A DNA stretch of 34,028 bases from Draconibacterium orientale. GTDB lineage: Bacteria > Bacteroidota > Bacteroidia > Bacteroidales > UBA1556. Under the pieces are notes generated by a model. The model was not told the DNA's origin and ran no database searches. It worked only from the letters and a program-made list of their open reading frames with translations. Both the position numbers and the translations under genes were made by a program. This document shows positions 2,114 through 12,607 of this stretch, piece after piece. The stretch is taken from positions 1 through 34,028 of the forward strand of contig DZDC01000007.1 in the NCBI GenBank assembly GCA_022736595.1. Reading direction: 5' to 3'. Each line of letters starts with the position of its first letter. The first letter of the stretch is position 1.

Positions 2114-2908
2114 TTAAGGAATCGATTTTTTACGGCTGCCCATTCCTTGCAATTTTAGTTCTCGATCTACACTAAGTTCGGAAATTGAATTTAATTCGCT
2201 TCCAATGGGCTCTAAAAGAGAAGCTTCATTGGCTTTAGGGTTTTTGATCTTTGAACTAATGGGATAAGCATTCATTTTCTCCGAAGGATAGGAATTTAGC
2301 ATTCGAGTTATATCGGTTAATGGCGTTTTGAGATTGAGCCAAGCAGCCTCTTGGTGTGGATAGAGAATAACAGGCGATCGATGATGTGGAATCCTTTGAA
2401 TGAGATCGTTGGCCGTTGTGGTAATTATACTAAATGAGAACACCTCTGTGCCTGTTTCAGGATTTAACCAAACATCATATATACCAGCAAAAGCAAACGG
2501 ACGTATTTTATCTTTTAGAAAAACGACAAATGGCCTGTCGAGACCTTCCTTTGTTGTACCTTCAATAAATGCATCTGCAATTACCAAACATCGCTGCGAG
2601 CGTATGGATTTACGAAAAGCAGGTTTGGAAATAATGTCTTTAGAACCAGAATAAGTTGGGTCATTTTCCTTATTACGATCTCCTTCAACACGAGCGTTAA
2701 AAAGGATCATATTCTTTTTTGACCAATGCGGCGTCATCCCAAATCTAAAAAGCTGAAGCACGCGGGGATCTTCGGCAGTAATGATAGGCGCTAACTGGCC
2801 TGGCGTGATATTGTAATTGGGTTCAAATTCAAAATGACTTGGGGCAGTCACGTTAAACCGCTTTTCAATCACCTCTATTTTTTGTACCAAAACATACCTG
2901 CCGCACAT
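2114..2908 (-). CDS. SRAP (SOS response-associated peptidase) family protein, YedK/HMCES-like
   Basis: The 264-residue protein starts MCGRY, the hallmark of SRAP proteins, in which Cys2 becomes the N terminus after Met removal and crosslinks to abasic sites in single-stranded DNA. Other family signatures follow: NYNITPGQ, FGMTPHWSK, FNARVE (the conserved Asn near residue 90), ADAFIEG with the conserved Glu, and IPHHRSPVIL with the active-site His. The usual GFYEW is FIEG here, a form I associate with Bacteroidota members. It follows the TonB receptor by 12 bases and may be co-transcribed with it, although no functional link is evident. The start is fixed because the Cys must follow the initiator Met. 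The last 25 or so residues are a variable tail. Confidence 0.9.
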   Translation of the reverse strand: MCGRYVLVQKIEVIEKRFNVTAPSHFEFEPNYNITPGQLAPIITAEDPRVLQLFRFGMTPHWSKKNMILFNARVEGDRNKENDPTYSGSKDIISKPAFRKSIRSQRCLVIADAFIEGTTKEGLDRPFVVFLKDKIRPFAFAGIYDVWLNPETGTEVFSFSIITTTANDLIQRIPHHRSPVILYPHQEAAWLNLKTPLTDITRMLNSYPSEKMNAYPISSKIKNPKANEASLLEPIGSELNSISELSVDRELKLQGMGSRKKSIP

Positions 2909-2920
2909 AATTTTTATTAC

Positions 2921-5272
2921 CTAAAAGGTTAAACTTAAACCCAGAGAAGGCATAAATGGGAGCTGGTCGATGCGCTTGTTTTGAATGCGATCGATATAAA
3001 AGATATTACTTCTATTGTATAAATTGGTGATACTGAGGGTTGCCTCCAAAGTGGATTTATCGGAAAGCAAAAACTTACGCTTCACACTAACATCAAGTCG
3101 ATGATACGAAGGCAGTCTTTTACTATTGATATCACCGTACAAAATACCAATTTGTCCGTTGGCGGTGGTGTAATCAGAATTAATCCCATCGCTAAAATCA
3201 AGCATTTCGTAGTTTCCAGCAGTAGGAGTAAATGGGAAACCACTACCAAAATTCCACCTCAAACTGGCATTCCAAAGTTGCAATTTACCCATCGCATAAT
3301 CCACTACAAGATTAACGTTGTGTCGTCGATCGAAATGCGGAATATAAGTTACAATTCCATCAAAACGATGATTATAGCTCAGAGAATATACAGCCCAAAC
3401 GTACAAATTTTTGAAAGTATATTTTCCTGAAAAGTCAAATCCATAGGCATTTCCAGATTCAATAATGAAATCCTTTTTCAAATAGTCGGGTTTGTCGGCA
3501 TACTCAGGAGTATCTTCAAAAACCTTATTCTTATTCATATTGGTGAGCTGGTTATACCATTTGTAATAAGCTTCAAAATTTAAAGTAATGTGCTTGAACA
3601 AATCATATTCAAGACCTCCAATGAGATGGGTAGATTTTTGAAGTTTATGTTTAAGCTCTTCTCCATTAAATTCTGATTGCAAATTTTCAGGGCCACTAAT
3701 AAACCCATAAAATAAATCCACTACATCCCGATCGGAAGAGCTACTAATCAGGTTTTGAGAATACAATCCTGTGGCAACCTTAATTCTAAGTTCGGAAGTT
3801 AAGTTGTATTTAACCGATAACCGTGGCTCCAATGAAAAATTGGCCAAAGAAGCATAATAATGTAAATGAATGCCAGGTACAATAATTAAGCGAGCCATGC
3901 CAAACTCATTGGATTCATTTTTCTTTTCACCAAACATTAGCTTAGTACTCACATAACCAGCTAATTCTGTGGTATTTTCAATCTGAGAAATGGTTCTATT
4001 TAGTGAATTAGTGTAAGAGAAATCAGTTTTAAATCCTTTAATATCCACACCATAATCAAGTTGATTTCTGCCCATAAAATAGGTGAAATCGAGACCCATA
4101 TCAAAACCTCCCACTTCGCTAAAGCGTGGCAAAGAAGTACCATCGTCAAATTTGATTTTATAATTTGTATAAGAAATATTACTTGAAAGCATCATGGGTG
4201 ATTGACTTGGAATGAGCGTAAATTTCATTCCTCCTCCATAAGATTTCCAATTGTAATTACTAATAGTTTGGTATTGAACATCATCATTAAAGTTAAAACC
4301 AAAAAAATCGGCTCTACTTCCATTGTTTCCATTTAAGGATATTTTTCCATATAAATCGGTAAATGTAAAAGGAAGTCCATTTCCCTCATTCACATATTTA
4401 TAAAGAGTAGGAGCAACTTTATCGATGTATGATTTTTTGACTGAAAGCATATAAGTTACACTTCCCGAATTGGGAGTTTTGGCTTTAACGATGGGTCCTT
4501 CGAGCAAAAGTTTAGCTCCAAAGGTGTTAATATCAACCCGACCCGAGCTTCGAAGTGGGTTTCCGTAACGAGTGGAAATATTCATAACCGATGAAATTCT
4601 TCCACCGTACTCAGCTCCAAATCCACCAGTATAAACATCTACGTTGGATATCATATCCACATCGAAAACGCTAAAGAATCCTATGGAATGAAAGGGATTA
4701 TAAATAGTCATACCGTCGAGCAAAACCATATTCTGAACTGGAGTTCCTCCTCGAATGTAAAGTTGTCCACCTTGATCGCCTGTAAAAACGACTCCAGGAA
4801 TTACTTGCATATATTGAGCTAAATCGGCCTGCCCACCAATGGTAGGGATTCGATTCATGGTTTTAGTAGAAACTTTTACAACTGAAATGTTGGGATCAGA
4901 AATGGCATTTTGGCGCTCAGCGTTGATGGTCGCTCCCTCAAGTTGGATGGAAGCTTGACTTAGCATTATTTTCCTAAATACAATTTCATTTTCTTTAATT
5001 TGAACGGATTGGCTCGTCGAATCATAACCCACAAAGGTTACTACTAATTTATAGGTTCCAGCTTTAAGTTTTGTGATGGCAAAAAAGCCATTTTCATCGG
5101 TAATGGCTCCAAGCGAAGTTCCATGAATATGAACGTTAGCAAAAAGAACAGGTTGACCGGTTTTACTATCGACAACAGTACCTCTGATGACAGTATTTTG
5201 AGCCCAAATCACCGAAGGTATTGAGATGAACAAGATTAAAATAAACCTTAAGACTGAAGAATGTAAGAGCAT
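2921..5272 (-). CDS. TonB-dependent outer-membrane receptor with N-terminal carboxypeptidase-regulatory domain
   Basis: The protein has 783 residues. A signal peptide ends near WAQ at residue 25. A CarboxypepD_reg-like beta domain follows (about 28-115, with GTVVDSKTGQPVLFANV and GFFAITKLKAGTYKL). Next comes a plug domain (about 130-235, with GGQLYIRGGTPVQNMVLLDGM and GAEYGGRISSVMNI), then a beta barrel ending in the aromatic-terminated strand LGLSLTF. No SusD partner is next to it, so polysaccharide uptake is not supported. Siderophore, metal, vitamin or peptide uptake remains open. It lies downstream of the terminator of the signalling cassette, and the SRAP gene follows after 12 bases. No convincing -7 element was found between 5272 and that terminator. 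Confidence 0.88.
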   Translation of the reverse strand: MLLHSSVLRFILILFISIPSVIWAQNTVIRGTVVDSKTGQPVLFANVHIHGTSLGAITDENGFFAITKLKAGTYKLVVTFVGYDSTSQSVQIKENEIVFRKIMLSQASIQLEGATINAERQNAISDPNISVVKVSTKTMNRIPTIGGQADLAQYMQVIPGVVFTGDQGGQLYIRGGTPVQNMVLLDGMTIYNPFHSIGFFSVFDVDMISNVDVYTGGFGAEYGGRISSVMNISTRYGNPLRSSGRVDINTFGAKLLLEGPIVKAKTPNSGSVTYMLSVKKSYIDKVAPTLYKYVNEGNGLPFTFTDLYGKISLNGNNGSRADFFGFNFNDDVQYQTISNYNWKSYGGGMKFTLIPSQSPMMLSSNISYTNYKIKFDDGTSLPRFSEVGGFDMGLDFTYFMGRNQLDYGVDIKGFKTDFSYTNSLNRTISQIENTTELAGYVSTKLMFGEKKNESNEFGMARLIIVPGIHLHYYASLANFSLEPRLSVKYNLTSELRIKVATGLYSQNLISSSSDRDVVDLFYGFISGPENLQSEFNGEELKHKLQKSTHLIGGLEYDLFKHITLNFEAYYKWYNQLTNMNKNKVFEDTPEYADKPDYLKKDFIIESGNAYGFDFSGKYTFKNLYVWAVYSLSYNHRFDGIVTYIPHFDRRHNVNLVVDYAMGKLQLWNASLRWNFGSGFPFTPTAGNYEMLDFSDGINSDYTTANGQIGILYGDINSKRLPSYHRLDVSVKRKFLLSDKSTLEATLSITNLYNRSNIFYIDRIQNKRIDQLPFMPSLGLSLTF

Positions 5273-5296
5273 TGAGTAAAAATTAGAAGATATCGT

Positions 5297-5336
5297 AAAA
5301 AAACCAGAGGCTGCGTTTCAAGCAATCACAACCTCT
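5297..5336 (-). terminator. Terminator of the Sia-like cassette
   Basis: On the minus strand an eight-pair stem (AGAGGTTG with CAGCCTCT, one G-U pair) closes a 15-base loop and is followed by GG and seven T. It lies 37 bases after the stop of the coiled-coil gene and ends the cassette before the TonB receptor gene. Confidence 0.7.
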
Positions 5337-5372
5337 CCTTGTTTATGGAATAAAATAAAGATAAATAAGCAT

Positions 5373-5897
5373 TTAGGATCCCATTCTCAATTTTGCTTGA
5401 GCGAGTTGTTTCTTTCGAGCCTTGCGAAGCATATACTTATTGGTGAATTCTTCGCCTGGCTTAATTAAAATGGCAACTATTAATTTGAGACTTAATCCAA
5501 CGAAATAGTTATCGCCAAAGTAATCATCGATCATGGGTTCAATAGCCACTTCAGAAATAATAAAAAGTCCAATGGCCATAATCATAACCAGAGTTGCGGC
5601 ACGTCTCCCAATGCGAGCTTCGGTCAACTCATCGATCGTTTGATTCAGTTGATTGTTAAGTTCGGCGAGTTGTACGTTAGAAAGCTCCAGAGCTTCATTG
5701 GTTTTATTAAGCTTTCCTTGAAGTCGATCACTGATTTTGGTAATGATTTTAACCTGATCAATCAGCTCTTCATAATGCTCAACAAGTTTTTTAAACTCGA
5801 GCTGCAATTCCATTTTAGAATACTCGTTCCGTTTTAGAAACTGCTTGCTCTGTTCAAGATTTTCAAGTTCCCGATGATATATGCTCTGGTTTGACAT
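5373..5897 (-). CDS. Coiled-coil protein with two membrane segments; last gene of the Sia-like cassette
   Basis: I do not recognise a named family. The 174-residue protein has a long predicted coiled coil at about residues 25-95, rich in Leu, Glu, Lys and Gln. A hydrophobic segment at about 100-117 (TLVMIMAIGLFIISEVAI) and a second at about 131-146 (YFVGLSLKLIVAILI) follow, then a basic tail (LRKARKKQLAQAKLR). The hairpin topology places both the coiled coil and the tail in the cytoplasm. It starts eight bases after the SiaC-like gene and shares its terminator, so co-transcription is nearly certain. In Pseudomonas the comparable place belongs to the diguanylate cyclase SiaD. This protein has no GGDEF motif. 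The inference is that it is the output or membrane anchor recognised by the SiaC-like protein. Confidence 0.75.
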   Translation of the reverse strand: MSNQSIYHRELENLEQSKQFLKRNEYSKMELQLEFKKLVEHYEELIDQVKIITKISDRLQGKLNKTNEALELSNVQLAELNNQLNQTIDELTEARIGRRAATLVMIMAIGLFIISEVAIEPMIDDYFGDNYFVGLSLKLIVAILIKPGEEFTNKYMLRKARKKQLAQAKLRMGS

Positions 5898-5905
5898 TCT
5901 TAGAA

Positions 5906-6286
5906 TTAATCTTCTATAGGTTTAATTTCGAATGGAAGACCACTCACATCTTGATAATCCTCCCCCGTTTCCATCATTTCTTCGTCATCTTCTTCGTAGT
6001 ACCATTCAACATTAACATCACAACCGTCGTTCAAGAACGATTTGAGTCGCTTTAAAACTTCCAAAATGTATTTAGAGGAACTCGTATTAAAGTACTCGAG
6101 TTTCACTTTAGCCACAACTTTGGCTGGTTTTTCAGCAGAATAAGTATCCAACCACAATAAAATAGGGTTAAAAAATTCGAAGGTGTTTTCAGGAATTGAA
6201 CGTCCGGAAATTTTTAGGATACCAGTCTGTCCATTGAAATCAATTTCAGGGGTTTGCTTTGACCCGTCAATTCTTAAGTTATTCAT
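5906..6286 (-). CDS. SiaC-like regulatory phosphoprotein (DUF1987)
   Basis: This 126-residue cytoplasmic protein matches the DUF1987/SiaC family, with GILKISGRSIPENTFEFF at the N terminus and the segment YFNTSSSK. In P. aeruginosa SiaC, as I recall the literature, the switch residue phosphorylated by SiaB and dephosphorylated by SiaA is Thr68. Here NTSSSK places a Thr at residue 68 when counted from this start. The dephosphorylated form of the family binds its output partner. The C terminus is very acidic (EEDDEEMMETGED). It sits 39 bases after the SiaB-like gene and eight before the coiled-coil membrane protein. The target is unknown here because no SiaD is present in the window. Confidence 0.85.
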   Translation of the reverse strand: MNNLRIDGSKQTPEIDFNGQTGILKISGRSIPENTFEFFNPILLWLDTYSAEKPAKVVAKVKLEYFNTSSSKYILEVLKRLKSFLNDGCDVNVEWYYEEDDEEMMETGEDYQDVSGLPFEIKPIED

Positions 6287-6325
6287 AGTATTAAAGTATT
6301 ATTTAATTCAAACCATTTATTAAAA

Positions 6326-6874
6326 CTAGTCCTCTTTACGTTTTGAAACCTTAACTGTGAGGTCAAAAAACGACAGTTTATCATTTACTTGGGTAAAACT
6401 AAAGTCAAGTTTCTGGCCCGATTTGCGAGCCATATCAATCATTCCCAAGTCGGCACCTCCTTTTTGAGAGATCCGGTTATTGTCTAATATTTCTCGATAA
6501 TATTGACGTAATTCATCTTTAGTCAATGAATTTACCCGTTCTATACGATCGCGCAAGGGCGGGATTTCCTTGTTTTTGATATAATTACCAGTTAGGATGT
6601 AGTAATAGTCGTCGTCGTAAAAGAGTTCAAGCATGGCTTTTCTAGAGTTCAGTTCACTTTCATCTTCTGCTTCTGCATGATGATAAAGGTTTTGCATACA
6701 CTCCACTAAAACATTAAAAATCTTTTTTCGAACATTACCTTTTTCAGAAACGGCATCAAGACGAGTTTCCATTATCTGCAAAACCATGGTAATAATATCG
6801 GAGGTGATTTCGCCTTTAAAGGACAACATGATATGATTGTCCATCATCATGCGAAATTTTTCATAGTTATTCAT
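6326..6874 (-). CDS. SiaB-like protein kinase (GHKL ATPase fold)
   Basis: This 182-residue cytoplasmic protein has features of the SiaB family (DUF6272), distant relatives of anti-sigma-factor and histidine-kinase ATPase domains. The N-box is seen as VLVECMQNLYHHA with Glu58 and Asn62. A glycine-containing nucleotide-binding segment KGGADLGMIDMARKSG is at about 138-153. There is no phospho-accepting His domain, so it is not a histidine kinase. By family knowledge it should phosphorylate the downstream SiaC-like protein. It follows the phosphatase gene by 66 bases and precedes siaC by 39. Assignment rests on the motifs together with the gene order. Confidence 0.82.
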   Translation of the reverse strand: MNNYEKFRMMMDNHIMLSFKGEITSDIITMVLQIMETRLDAVSEKGNVRKKIFNVLVECMQNLYHHAEAEDESELNSRKAMLELFYDDDYYYILTGNYIKNKEIPPLRDRIERVNSLTKDELRQYYREILDNNRISQKGGADLGMIDMARKSGQKLDFSFTQVNDKLSFFDLTVKVSKRKED

Positions 6875-6940
6875 ATCAAATATTTTATGAATTTACAATG
6901 GCACTAATTTACATCATTTTTATATTCAACAAAGAAAAAT

Positions 6941-9900
6941 CTACAATCTTATTCCTATCACCAGAACATCATCAATTTGCTCAATGCTCCCTCTCCATTT
7001 TATTAATTGATTATCAAGAATTTGATTTGATTCTTCACCCATTTTTTGGGGTAATTGAAGCAACAATTCTTTGAAGCGTTTCGACATTAATTTCTTTCCA
7101 TCAGCTCCTCCAAATTGGTCAATATAGCCATCTGTTGAAATATATAAGCAATCGCCTTCTTCCAGTTGCAATTCTTTGGTGGTAAATGGAATGTTCATTC
7201 GCTCTGAAACTCCAATGGGCATCCGATCGGCTTTAACTTCAATAAGGCGATTTTGGAAAACTGAATATCCAAATTCAAAATCGATTTTGGATTCATCTAC
7301 TTCATGAGATTTTACTATATACAAGGAATTATAAGCCCCGGCAAACTTTACGTTTCTGGTTTTAGGGTCGATACTTAGAAGTGCAATATCCAGTCCATCC
7401 TTACTTTGCGTATCGCCACTTTGCTTTAGATCGGTAATGATATCGGTACGCATGTGGTTCAATATTTCAGCAGGATCTGTAATTTGCTTTTCTTTAACTA
7501 CTTTATTAAGAGAACTTATACTTATCATGCTCATGAAAGCCCCTGGTACTCCATGCCCTGTACAATCTGCAGCCGCCACGATGAGACGTTGCTTATAAAA
7601 TGTATTCCAATGAAAATCACCACTTACAATATCTTTAGGGCGATAGAACACATGGAATGCACTTAAAACTTTTGCCATGGTATCGTGGGGTGGCAATACC
7701 GCTCTTTGAATGCGTTGAGCATAGTTGATACTATCGGTAATGTCTTTATTCTTTTGAGCGAGAAGTTCGTTCTTATGACTTATTTCAATGGTACGCTCCT
7801 TAACCTTTTGTTCTAATTCAGCTTTTTCCTGTTTAAGTTGACGCTCGCGAACTTTCACAAAAATGACGATGGATATAATTAAAACCAAAGCTGCCAATGT
7901 ATAAAACCATAGCGTTTGCCAAAAAGGAGGTCTTATAGTAAACTTAAGTTGCTGTGGCACTTTGTTCCATATTCCATTATTGTTTTGAGCCATCACTTCA
8001 AAAACGTAATCGCCAGGGGGAAGGGCTGGAAAATTGGCATAAGTCTGATTGGTCGAAGGTTGCCATTCGTTTTGAGCTCCCAACAATCGTACTTTATAAG
8101 CTACTTTTGAAGCATCAGAAATACAAATGGATTTAAAATCAATCAGAATTGAATTTTGAGTATAGCTAAAAACCAATTGATCTGTCATTTCAACATCTTG
8201 AAGGTTAACTCTCAATCTTGTAATTAGTGTAATTGGCTCTAACTTATTAATTGTCAATAATTTCGTATTAATTTCAGTGACTCCTGCAGAAGTTCCACAC
8301 CAGATCAAACCTTTGGAGTCGATATAAACAGCCGAGGGTTTTACTTCTACTCCAATAAATCCAGTATTTGCATCAAAAAACTGTAAATCATTGGTTTTCA
8401 AATTATATACATTCAATCCATTATTGGTTCCGATGATTAAGTTGCCTATTTTATCCAAGGCCAATCCCGAAATAAGGTTGGACCTTAGGCCATTTTCTAA
8501 GGTAAAGTGAGATTTTATGGTCTTATTTTTTACCAAATATAAACCCATTCCTTCAGTTCCAACCCATAGGGAAGCCTCATTTCCAAAAATAGCGGTAGGT
8601 GTAATATTTACTCCAAATGAATAAGGTTTAACATCCGAACCTTTTATCTTGGTTAATCCTTTTTCACGGTGTCCTACCCACAGAACGCCTTCACTATCAT
8701 AATATAAAGCCGAAATGTCATTATTAACTAAACCTGAACTTTGGGTTAATCGTTCTAATCGACCAGATTCGGGTTCATAATACAGCAAGCCATCATAAGT
8801 ACCTACCCAAACATGGTCTTTACCATCAATTTCCATGGCAGTTACATTGGCACTATTGGTTGACATCATAATCATATTAGTTAGATCCAATGCCAATTTC
8901 ATCCTTTTTGCTTTAACACTATAATATGAAACTCCACCACCCCAAGTACCAATCCACATATTGCCCAATTTATCCTTCTTAATAAATCGTATATCATTGG
9001 ATTGCAAGTCAATGTCGTCCTTAACAATAGTTTTTAAAGAACTTACCTTTTCATTTTCCACTTTAGCAATATAGACACCCACATTGCTACCAAACCAATA
9101 TTCATTATCAACAGATGCAATGGATTGTATTTGTACTGGCTTATTATTGGACATTTGATAATAGTTGCGGAAAGCAAATCCTTTAAAAATCAGTAAGCCT
9201 TTGGAATAAGTTCCAATAAGCACATTACCTTCACGATCCGAAGTAATGCAATTGATCTTATCGTCAATCAATCCATTGGCTTCATTAAAGGTAGTAATCT
9301 TACCCTCGTGAAACAAGGAAATGCCGCCACCGTGGGTACCCACCCATGTACGATGGTATTGGTCGGTGAAAATTTCGCTAACCCAATTGGAAGCTAATCC
9401 ATCACGTTGATCATATATTTTTGGAACTGCGTTAATATTGGAATAATAGTAAAGTCCACCATTATAAGTTCCAACCCAAAAACCACCTTTATTATCTTCA
9501 TGAACTTTTATAATACTAAAATATTGGGGCCAGTTGAAAAACATCTCATTAACAAACTCATACTTATTTGTTTTAGAATTCAAATATTTAACGCCGTACC
9601 TCGTAACAAAAAGCATCCCGAGTGAAGGTGAATTGCTCATGGAGAATACATTATTGGAAAGGCCATTCGATTCATTAAGAATGGTATCCACATGAATGAT
9701 TTTGGCATTAGGATCATCAATGCAATAAACACCACTTTCAAGAGTAGCAATGTAAAGGCGCCCATTTTTGTCTACCTTTATATCTGTAATATCCCCTTTA
9801 ACTTTCTTGAGTACTATTTGTTGAAACTTTTTATTTCTATAAACCGACAAGCCTCCAGAAAAATGGCCCACCCAAATTGCCTCATTGGAGTCGGTATAAA

Positions 9901-10171
9901 CGACACTCACCCCTAAGGGAGCAATCCCATCTTCCACATTGAAATTTGTAAAACGTTCTCCATCAAATTTACTTAGACCGCTTTGGGTTCCTATCCATAT
10001 AAACCCGTCTGAAGTTTGAATTATCGACTTGACTTTGGTATGACCAAGACCTTGTTTTACATTATAGTTTTCAAAAAAATACTGCTGAGCTTGGACTTTC
10101 AATCCACACGCAACCAACAATATTAAAAAATTCAAAACAAAAATCGAATTAAAGACTATATGCTTTTTCAT
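6941..10171 (-). CDS. Propeller sensor with PP2C/SpoIIE phosphatase output (SiaA-like)
   Basis: The protein has 1076 residues. An N-terminal signal sequence runs over about 1-28. A double beta propeller of Reg_prop repeats covers about 30-660 (recurrent IWIGT, LWVGT, GLIWCGT strands). A Y_Y_Y domain lies at about 690-749, a membrane helix at 755-773 and a coiled coil at 775-815. The C-terminal PPM/SpoIIE phosphatase domain runs from about 820 to 1076. Metal-binding acidic positions are visible in VSGDFHW (Asp852), AADCTGHGVPG (Asp869), YISTDGYID (Asp1014) and QIDDVLV (1067-1068). The propeller should sense a periplasmic signal and the phosphatase act in the cytoplasm on the SiaC-like protein. 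The domain set is that of hybrid two-component sensors, but with phosphatase output in place of a histidine kinase. It is the first gene of the cassette, after the caspase gene's terminator. Confidence 0.88.
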   Translation of the reverse strand: MKKHIVFNSIFVLNFLILLVACGLKVQAQQYFFENYNVKQGLGHTKVKSIIQTSDGFIWIGTQSGLSKFDGERFTNFNVEDGIAPLGVSVVYTDSNEAIWVGHFSGGLSVYRNKKFQQIVLKKVKGDITDIKVDKNGRLYIATLESGVYCIDDPNAKIIHVDTILNESNGLSNNVFSMSNSPSLGMLFVTRYGVKYLNSKTNKYEFVNEMFFNWPQYFSIIKVHEDNKGGFWVGTYNGGLYYYSNINAVPKIYDQRDGLASNWVSEIFTDQYHRTWVGTHGGGISLFHEGKITTFNEANGLIDDKINCITSDREGNVLIGTYSKGLLIFKGFAFRNYYQMSNNKPVQIQSIASVDNEYWFGSNVGVYIAKVENEKVSSLKTIVKDDIDLQSNDIRFIKKDKLGNMWIGTWGGGVSYYSVKAKRMKLALDLTNMIMMSTNSANVTAMEIDGKDHVWVGTYDGLLYYEPESGRLERLTQSSGLVNNDISALYYDSEGVLWVGHREKGLTKIKGSDVKPYSFGVNITPTAIFGNEASLWVGTEGMGLYLVKNKTIKSHFTLENGLRSNLISGLALDKIGNLIIGTNNGLNVYNLKTNDLQFFDANTGFIGVEVKPSAVYIDSKGLIWCGTSAGVTEINTKLLTINKLEPITLITRLRVNLQDVEMTDQLVFSYTQNSILIDFKSICISDASKVAYKVRLLGAQNEWQPSTNQTYANFPALPPGDYVFEVMAQNNNGIWNKVPQQLKFTIRPPFWQTLWFYTLAALVLIISIVIFVKVRERQLKQEKAELEQKVKERTIEISHKNELLAQKNKDITDSINYAQRIQRAVLPPHDTMAKVLSAFHVFYRPKDIVSGDFHWNTFYKQRLIVAAADCTGHGVPGAFMSMISISSLNKVVKEKQITDPAEILNHMRTDIITDLKQSGDTQSKDGLDIALLSIDPKTRNVKFAGAYNSLYIVKSHEVDESKIDFEFGYSVFQNRLIEVKADRMPIGVSERMNIPFTTKELQLEEGDCLYISTDGYIDQFGGADGKKLMSKRFKELLLQLPQKMGEESNQILDNQLIKWRGSIEQIDDVLVIGIRL

Positions 10172-10258: not shown

Positions 10259-12607
10259 TTATTTGCGTATAAAAAAGAACGTTCCATTTTCATCAGCCAG
10301 CCCATCGATTTTTCCAAACTGGGGAGCTTGCTGGTTGTTCTTGACTACTGCTGATTTTACAGATTTAACAATGGACTCGATAGGGATACAGGAATTGGGA
10401 TTATGAATAAGTGAATTAGCAAAGGTTTTGGTAAATTGAGAGTTATCGGAGGCTAATTCGTAGCCAGCAGAACTAAATACCTGGCTCGACTTAAACTTTG
10501 TAGCTTTCCAATCGGCACAGTCTCTTTCAATAATATCTGATCTCATTGCTTGATAAAAAGAAGGCCCAGATTCACAAGCATCGGTAATTACCAACGTATG
10601 AGTGATGACAGAGCTGTAGCTATTCATAGAGGCTTTAAGGGCAGTGATATTAAAATAAGTAAATTCGTCATCAGTTTTGCCGTCAACAGGAATCCAATAT
10701 CCAGTGCTATTTATAAATTTCCCATGACCCGCGTACCATACAATGATGGAGCTAACCCTATTCTTAATTACTAGATCGCGCAATTCGATGGAAAAGAATT
10801 TCTCCATTTGATTTTTGGTCATATTCCTCTTATGAATCACATTATTGATGTTGTAGTTAGATAGTGCCGATTTCATCATGGTGATATCTTTTGTGGGGCC
10901 ACTAAGCGAAGCAAATGTGCTATACTCTGAATTTTCTATAAATACAACCCATGTTTTTCCCATTGGATTTTCGGTAGCAATAGCCGCTCCCTCTCGATTA
11001 AGAAGAAATTCCTTAATGGATTTATTTCCATAAATATCTATAACCTCAACGGTAATTTTAGTCTTATTTGCAATGCTAACCGTAGCCGCAAAAGCAGGAT
11101 TCAAAGTGGAAGGAATATAGCTTGCATTTACACTATCGATCTGAACACTAGCAATCTTACTTTCATCGGTAATTGCACCTTCGATAAACAAACTGTTGGT
11201 ATTGGCTTCGAGGTAAATTTGTCCATCGTCAGAAGGAACGGGCGATATCAAAGCAATTATTGGGGCATTAATTTCGGTACGTTCGATGGGATAAACATCG
11301 GCACGAACGTTATCATAAACATCCTTGGCGACAATCTTAATTTCAGTAGCTTCAGCCACATTAATATTGGCTACAAATTCGTTAATTCGAGAGGTACTAT
11401 CAAACTTTACATCCACACCATTAATCGAAAACGATTTTATTGGGCTTTGATCATCTACTCTTCCAACAATTTCTTGAACTTCCTTACCTTTGATAATTTG
11501 CATTTTCTTGGAAGCATTAATTACTGGTGCATCAATAACTATAACAGGTTTTGCATTCTCTCTTTTAAGCTCAAATAGTCTAACTTCTGCATCAGCAATC
11601 ATTTTTACTGCAGCAGCATCGGTTAGACCTAAGGTTTTCAATTTTTCATAGTCTGCTATTGCTTTATCAAAATTCTGAATTTCCTCGTACGAAGCAGCTC
11701 TATTAAAATAAGCAGGATAATATTGTGGATCGAGGCTCATGACACTCGTAAAGTCATTAATAGCACTGGTATGTTGTTTGAAGTCGTAATAAATACCCCC
11801 GCGTTTGAAAAATACATCTTTCAAAAAAGGATCGTTGGGATATAATACTATTATCTGGGATAAATCGTTGATGGCATTAATATAATCCATTTTCTTGTGA
11901 TAAGCTAAGGCTCTAATCCAATAAGCTTGCATACTGCGTTGATCGATACCCATGGCTGAATTGGCACTCATTATCGTTTGGTCGAATAGATTTTGATAAA
12001 AATAAGTATTAGCTAATCCTAAATATCCTTCAATGTTTTTTGGATCCATACCAATGGCCAATTGATAATAATTTTGAGCATCAACATACTTTTGGCTTGC
12101 ATAAAGAACCGTGGCTTTGTCAAAATAGGCTTGATAGTTCTTTTTAACTTCAAGTGCTTTGTTTGCAGTTTCGAGTGCTTCATCAAATCTACTCATTGCG
12201 TGCAACGACATCACTTTGTAATGAAATGCTGGCAAACTTTTCTTATCTAAAAGTAAAGTTTTATCAGCATATTTAACTGAACTTTCATATTGATTCAAAG
12301 TGTATGAAATCTCAGTCAATTTTAAAGTGTACTCCTCAGATTTTGGGTCAAGGATGGATGCACGTTCGTAGTCTAAAAGTGCTTTATTTAACTCAGTAAT
12401 ATTTACATAAGCTTTAGCACGCGCTACAAAAGCATCCGCATTATTAGGTTCAAGTTCTAAGGCTTTAGTAAAATTCTCAATTGCATCTTGGTAGCTTTTA
12501 CTTTCAGCAAAGGTTTCACCAGTTTTTAAAAACTTCTTTGCATTTTGACCATACAAAATAGTGGTAGTCAATAGTAAAATAATTAGGAAGGGTATTTGTG
12601 ATTTCAT
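10259..12607 (-). CDS. Exported TPR protein with C-terminal caspase-like (peptidase C14) domain
   Basis: The protein has 782 residues. A signal peptide ends near LYGQ at residue 21. About nine TPR-like repeats follow (roughly 24-345, with the pattern DAIENFTKALELEPNNADAF). Two beta domains come next (about 375-440 and 460-540, the second with DIYGNKSIKEF, typical of bacterial Ig-like folds). The caspase-hemoglobinase domain starts near KTWVVFIENSEYS at 551. The catalytic dyad is visible as YAGHG (His628) and DACESG (Cys678). Such proteins are exported or periplasmic in Bacteroidota, and substrates are mostly unknown. It has its own terminator, and a -7 element lies 41 bases upstream of the start. 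The adjacent signalling cassette may be coincidence. Confidence 0.87.
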   Translation of the reverse strand: MKSQIPFLIILLLTTTILYGQNAKKFLKTGETFAESKSYQDAIENFTKALELEPNNADAFVARAKAYVNITELNKALLDYERASILDPKSEEYTLKLTEISYTLNQYESSVKYADKTLLLDKKSLPAFHYKVMSLHAMSRFDEALETANKALEVKKNYQAYFDKATVLYASQKYVDAQNYYQLAIGMDPKNIEGYLGLANTYFYQNLFDQTIMSANSAMGIDQRSMQAYWIRALAYHKKMDYINAINDLSQIIVLYPNDPFLKDVFFKRGGIYYDFKQHTSAINDFTSVMSLDPQYYPAYFNRAASYEEIQNFDKAIADYEKLKTLGLTDAAAVKMIADAEVRLFELKRENAKPVIVIDAPVINASKKMQIIKGKEVQEIVGRVDDQSPIKSFSINGVDVKFDSTSRINEFVANINVAEATEIKIVAKDVYDNVRADVYPIERTEINAPIIALISPVPSDDGQIYLEANTNSLFIEGAITDESKIASVQIDSVNASYIPSTLNPAFAATVSIANKTKITVEVIDIYGNKSIKEFLLNREGAAIATENPMGKTWVVFIENSEYSTFASLSGPTKDITMMKSALSNYNINNVIHKRNMTKNQMEKFFSIELRDLVIKNRVSSIIVWYAGHGKFINSTGYWIPVDGKTDDEFTYFNITALKASMNSYSSVITHTLVITDACESGPSFYQAMRSDIIERDCADWKATKFKSSQVFSSAGYELASDNSQFTKTFANSLIHNPNSCIPIESIVKSVKSAVVKNNQQAPQFGKIDGLADENGTFFFIRK

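Follow-up and report, generated by a model that had tools for sequence, protein, structure and literature searches.

Proteins of the SiaC (DUF1987) family are widespread, and SiaD is, to our knowledge, the only SiaC target that has been studied. In the open literature searched, the term DUF1987 was found in one paper, in which such proteins are no more than suggested to modulate adjacent proteins. SiaABC of Pseudomonas aeruginosa controls the diguanylate cyclase SiaD (PMC8457831, PMC7647112). In the SiaC–SiaD crystal structure (7E6G), S82 and Q86 of the SiaD stalk form hydrogen bonds with T68 of SiaC, and the binding motif occurs twice in the stalk (PMC8457831). The contacts of SiaD to SiaC were given as S82, D83, R84 and Q86 (eLife 67289). 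The gene set described here shares with P. aeruginosa SiaABCD a PP2C phosphatase, a GHKL-type kinase, a DUF1987 phosphoprotein with T68 and a downstream stalk protein, as well as the gene order A-B-C-output. However, its SiaA carries a periplasmic propeller/Y_Y_Y sensor, its output protein has a two-transmembrane (TM) hairpin instead of a GGDEF domain and one docking motif instead of two, and no diguanylate cyclase was found in the genome. The STAS–diguanylate cyclase switches HsbA/HsbD and BgrV/BgrR are alike in that a phosphorylation-controlled STAS-like protein modulates a partner (PMC8457831), but they use STAS instead of DUF1987 and have a c-di-GMP output.

The window is a stretch of 34,028 nucleotides of Draconibacterium orientale (contig DZDC01000007.1). 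Four ORFs were confirmed on the minus strand from position 10171 to 5373, encoding a SiaA-like phosphatase (6941..10171, 1076 aa), a SiaB-family kinase (6326..6874, 182 aa), a SiaC-family phosphoprotein (5906..6286, 126 aa) and a fourth protein of 174 aa, here called P4 (5373..5897). The intergenic gaps within this set were 8 to 66 bases. An intrinsic terminator follows P4 on the same strand (5296..5342), as the initial annotation had proposed; RNA folding gave a 10-bp stem (−15.2 kcal/mol; z=−2.75) with a U7 tail. The terminator was not picked up by a simple scan because the loop exceeds the range of that scan. Past the terminator, a TonB-dependent receptor and an SRAP protein (2114-5272) are encoded, which are located 3' of P4 in most genomes of the genus. 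On the other side, a TPR protein whose C-terminal domain is caspase-like (10259-12607; NF047832, E=1.6e-9, under the cut-off) precedes siaA in the genus. In genome G304 (L066), the caspase-like TPR gene and siaA are both absent from the site, which hints at a link between them.

Profile searches recovered the SiaB and SiaC families and agreed with the identities that had been proposed for the first three proteins. Pfam searches of the phosphatase found Reg_prop (PF07494), Y_Y_Y (PF07495) and SpoIIE (PF07228) domains, arranged as a signal/TM segment, a Reg_prop propeller, Y_Y_Y, a TM segment at about 754-772, a coiled coil and SpoIIE/PP2C at 861-1075. The SiaA model NF038263 matched residues 777-1075 with E=8.7e-59, which together with PF07228 identifies a SiaA-type membrane phosphatase, yet the match was under the full-length cut-off because the sensor part differs. 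SiaB matched PF19788 (DUF6272) with E=1.2e-41 and the SiaB-family kinase model NF038262 with 159 bits against a cut-off of 85, and the GHKL-type N box VECMQN and G box GGADLG were located at residues 57 and 139, respectively. SiaC matched PF09345 with E=1.1e-41 and aligned without gaps to the solved SiaC of P. aeruginosa (phmmer E=8e-19), so that its NTSSSK segment begins with N67-T68-S69 and the predicted phosphosite T68 lies in the context Y65-F-N67-T68-S69. T/S68, N67 and S69 were present in 52/52 paired SiaC proteins. The NCBIfam Pseudomonas equivalog models gave 199.7 of the required 700 bits for SiaA, 86 of 225 for SiaB and 101 of 150 for SiaC; the proteins are therefore family members below the Pseudomonas equivalog level.

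P4 had been described as a coiled-coil protein with two TM segments and no GGDEF motif. The TM segments (101-119 and 127-145) and the absence of a GGDEF domain in a Pfam search were borne out, so that P4 lacks the catalytic domain of a SiaD diguanylate cyclase, but the coiled coil is a SiaD-type stalk and not a new partner. The SiaD model NF038266 matched P4 weakly over residues 25-107 (E=8.6e-4). A stalk HMM was trained on nine SiaC-adjacent non-P4 proteins of other lineages to avoid circularity. When this HMM was run against 950 ORFs, the P4 of the window was matched with E=1e-15, the weakest P4 with 2.7e-7 and the best unrelated ORF with 0.096, with none in between. The same HMM matched P. 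aeruginosa SiaD at 6.9e-7, covering both SiaC-binding motifs, and a profile-profile comparison (hhalign) between the stalks of P4 and those of the non-P4 proteins gave E=7.6e-18. These reciprocal HMM and profile-profile matches show that the N-terminal half of P4 is, by its sequence, homologous to the SiaC-binding stalk of SiaD, beyond generic coiled-coil likeness.

The SiaC-binding motif is recognizable in P4. The two motifs of SiaD read ARISDGFQ and ARISDRYQ, and that of P4 reads TKISDRLQ, so the contact core ISDRxQ is kept, with S82 and Q86 of SiaD matching S56 and Q60 of P4 at equal spacing. By residue match, the predicted SiaC-docking core is KISDRLQGKLN (residues 54-64, positions 5706..5738 on the minus strand), equivalent to SiaD 80-90, and a Tyr upstream of the motif is also kept. 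By analogy with the solved complex, SiaC would bind to the stalk of P4. Peripheral contacts on SiaC differ (D79K, R103E, L107T and D114V); charge swaps between SiaC 79 and stalk 73/74 and between SiaC 103 and stalk 91 look compensatory, on few independent events. AlphaFold2 predicted a short N-terminal helix, a helix of 100 residues (28-127), a turn (128-130) and a helix at 131-173 with pLDDT 79.6; the long helix runs from the stalk unbroken through TM1 and the second helix runs through TM2. A rod-shaped protein is expected to have a low pTM, and the value was 0.37.

Coiled coils yield spurious profile matches, and a profile search of the PDB placed generic coiled coils above SiaD, as would be expected if P4 were an unrelated coiled-coil membrane protein with only low-complexity likeness to the SiaD stalk. 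This explanation is highly improbable given the clean gap that separated stalks from all other ORFs, coiled coils included, among the 950 ORFs. The stalks also share the non-heptad residues Y, T and SDxxQ at fixed spacing, and P4 adjoins siaC. Furthermore, a P4 that was found through its SiaC and without the motif (L159) also carries VSDKLQ.

P4 loci were collected from 85,462 species genomes. The 48 loci came from Bacteroidales MAGs, from Cytophagales (Flexithrix, Microscilla, Ekhidna and Marinoscillum) and from one Kapaibacterium, with P4 identity down to 31%. The initial annotation had called for a survey of whether the fourth gene stays next to its sia neighbours, and siaC was found immediately upstream of P4 in 41/48 loci across these lineages. 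Of the seven loci without an adjoining siaC, three in Reichenbachiella carry siaB there; the seven correspond to six genomes (L108 and L122 are from the same isolate), and SiaC was encoded elsewhere in 6/6. One of the two search patterns, SDRLQ[NKG]KL[ND], contained part of the motif, and the invariance of the motif over the 48 loci is therefore partly an artefact. For this reason, we relied on the independent stalk HMM, on L159 and on a P4 that entered the set through the SiaC profile and not through the motif pattern (L016). Among 297 genomes of the phylum, SiaC was found in 10/11 stalk carriers and in 17/297 genomes overall (P=1.7e-13, with relatedness ignored). Within the genus of the window, one P4 was present in 9/11 genomes, including 6/6 good ones, and its neighbours are conserved. 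A conserved output gene 3' of P4 was considered and rejected, as the genes after P4 differ between lineages.

Both halves of P4 were also found with other partners. Elsewhere, the stalk leads into GGDEF (L133, L130), HisKA/HATPase (L129, L140), class III nucleotide cyclase (L132, L127) or PP2C (L135) domains, and stalks of 77-85 residues stand free (L017, L021). Most of the proteins in which the stalk occurs with other domains or alone adjoin siaC. The two-TM hairpin domain of P4 (residues 96-174, positions 5376..5612 on the minus strand) was found behind a receiver domain in L175 (PF00072, E=1.5e-27; hairpin HMM, E=1.1e-15), at the end of TPR proteins in L125 (2e-16) and L126 (3e-13), more weakly in L145, L136 and L153, and perhaps at the end of a Y_Y_Y sensor in L155 (4e-4); the weaker matches may reflect hydrophobic bias. 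Since stalk and hairpin each occur with other partners, P4 is made up of two modules, an input part that SiaD has as well and a membrane part that is also used with other inputs. On a wider reading, for which we see the chances as evenly balanced, the stalk would be a portable SiaC-docked input that has been joined to diguanylate cyclases, histidine kinases, class III cyclases, PP2C and the hairpin, the hairpin would be a portable membrane effector under the control of either SiaC or a receiver domain, and P4 would be a c-di-GMP-free, phosphorylation-gated membrane effector of a new kind.

Two observations concern stalks outside P4. The free stalks in L021 / L073 (4628-4861) and L017 (1227-1484) stand directly after siaC and are followed by a large TPR-like protein; these stalks of 77-85 aa are possibly adaptors that bridge SiaC to the TPR-like protein. 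A stalk-cyclase protein (L134, 1465-2385) is encoded in genome G277, in which SiaC was not found; either SiaC was missed or this stalk has another ligand.

A search for GGDEF domains found none in the window's genome, whose assembly is 91% complete, none in the 11 genomes of the genus that were searched, and none in 33/34 additional P4 genomes, a set that includes some of the genus members again. The only GGDEF-positive genome among these 34 was the Kapaibacterium, while 8/14 control genomes were positive in the same search. The initial annotation had also named a GGDEF partner elsewhere in the genome as something to look for, and the search of the assembly and of the genus (0/11) found none. 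Because SiaABC of P. aeruginosa controls SiaD (PMC8457831, PMC7647112) and a gene could be missing from a 91% complete assembly, the switch might still control c-di-GMP by way of a diguanylate cyclase whose gene lies at another site. One missed GGDEF gene is possible in such an assembly, but hardly over the whole genome set, and with 0/11 in the genus, 1/34 among the other P4 genomes and 8/14 among the controls, we regard this explanation as extremely unlikely. The proposal that this lineage uses the same switch with a different, membrane-bound output, possibly independent of c-di-GMP, thus gained support from the profiles, the adjacency of siaC and P4, and the absence of GGDEF.

We consider it probable that the four genes form a SiaABC partner switch with P4, a membrane effector, as its output. 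The periplasmic propeller of SiaA would sense a signal and control the cytoplasmic PP2C domain of the same protein. By analogy with P. aeruginosa, this domain would dephosphorylate SiaC at T68, and SiaB would oppose this by phosphorylating SiaC. Unphosphorylated SiaC would dock on the ISDRLQ core of P4, as on SiaD, and stabilize a dimer with a parallel coiled coil. Through the stalk helix, predicted to be unbroken into TM1, docking would alter the two-TM hairpin that stands in the place of the GGDEF output. The 2:4 complex would not be copied exactly, since P4 has one docking motif and SiaD has two.

The main rival explanation is that P4 is a tether without output, which either keeps SiaC close to SiaA at the membrane or sequesters it, the target of SiaC being another protein. 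The hairpin is small, has no recognizable catalytic domain and also ends large sensor proteins, all of which would suit a tether. The second SiaABC set of the genus, which lacks a stalk and has an ABC transporter gene after it, points the same way, as SiaC may have other targets. However, P4 occupies the exact position of SiaD and carries the SiaD docking core, homologous stalks on other proteins encoded beside siaC precede output domains or stand free, and no further gene is conserved 3' of P4 across lineages. We therefore regard a mere tether as unlikely and prefer P4 as a membrane effector. Its hairpin matched nothing in Pfam or among solved structures (PDB profile search and Foldseek), so that it is architecture alone which argues for an effector role, and the hairpin could be only an anchor. 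If it acts, it may form a small channel, perturb the membrane or recruit a membrane partner. A pore like that of the mitochondrial calcium uniporter was suggested by the coiled coil-TM-EP-TM layout and was rejected: a profile of 42 P4s found no uniporter in the PDB, and Foldseek also gave no match with E<=0.001.

Other SiaB–SiaC modules lie by ABC transporter genes in the genus and the order (L069, L057, L028-L033). They likewise contain SiaB and SiaC, with SpoIIE upstream in the genus, but differ from the set in the window in that they lack a stalk protein and have an ABC-2 type transporter gene either after siaC or facing it. The second set of the same genome is located on another contig (L069, 1215-10379) and encodes CheR, CheB, GAF, GAF/PAS/SpoIIE, SiaB and SiaC proteins, followed by a fusion protein of the ABC-2 transporter type; a docking stalk was not found nearby. 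The SpoIIE gene of this set is broken into two ORFs (178 and 738 aa), whereas relatives carry a single ORF of about 870 aa. In genomes of the same order (L027-L056; G348, G353 and G374), SiaC is present in up to 21 copies, most of them in SiaB–SiaC pairs, many of which face a multi-TM ABC-2-like transporter gene. Three siaC genes are present in tandem in G362 (L071).

With the docking element identified, the targets of many uncharacterized SiaC proteins become predictable. One class of predicted SiaC targets sits in genomes almost free of diguanylate cyclases, which would separate the SiaABC switch from c-di-GMP. A short, testable motif is gained in ISDRxQ, with S and Q as the contact residues, together with a new membrane module.
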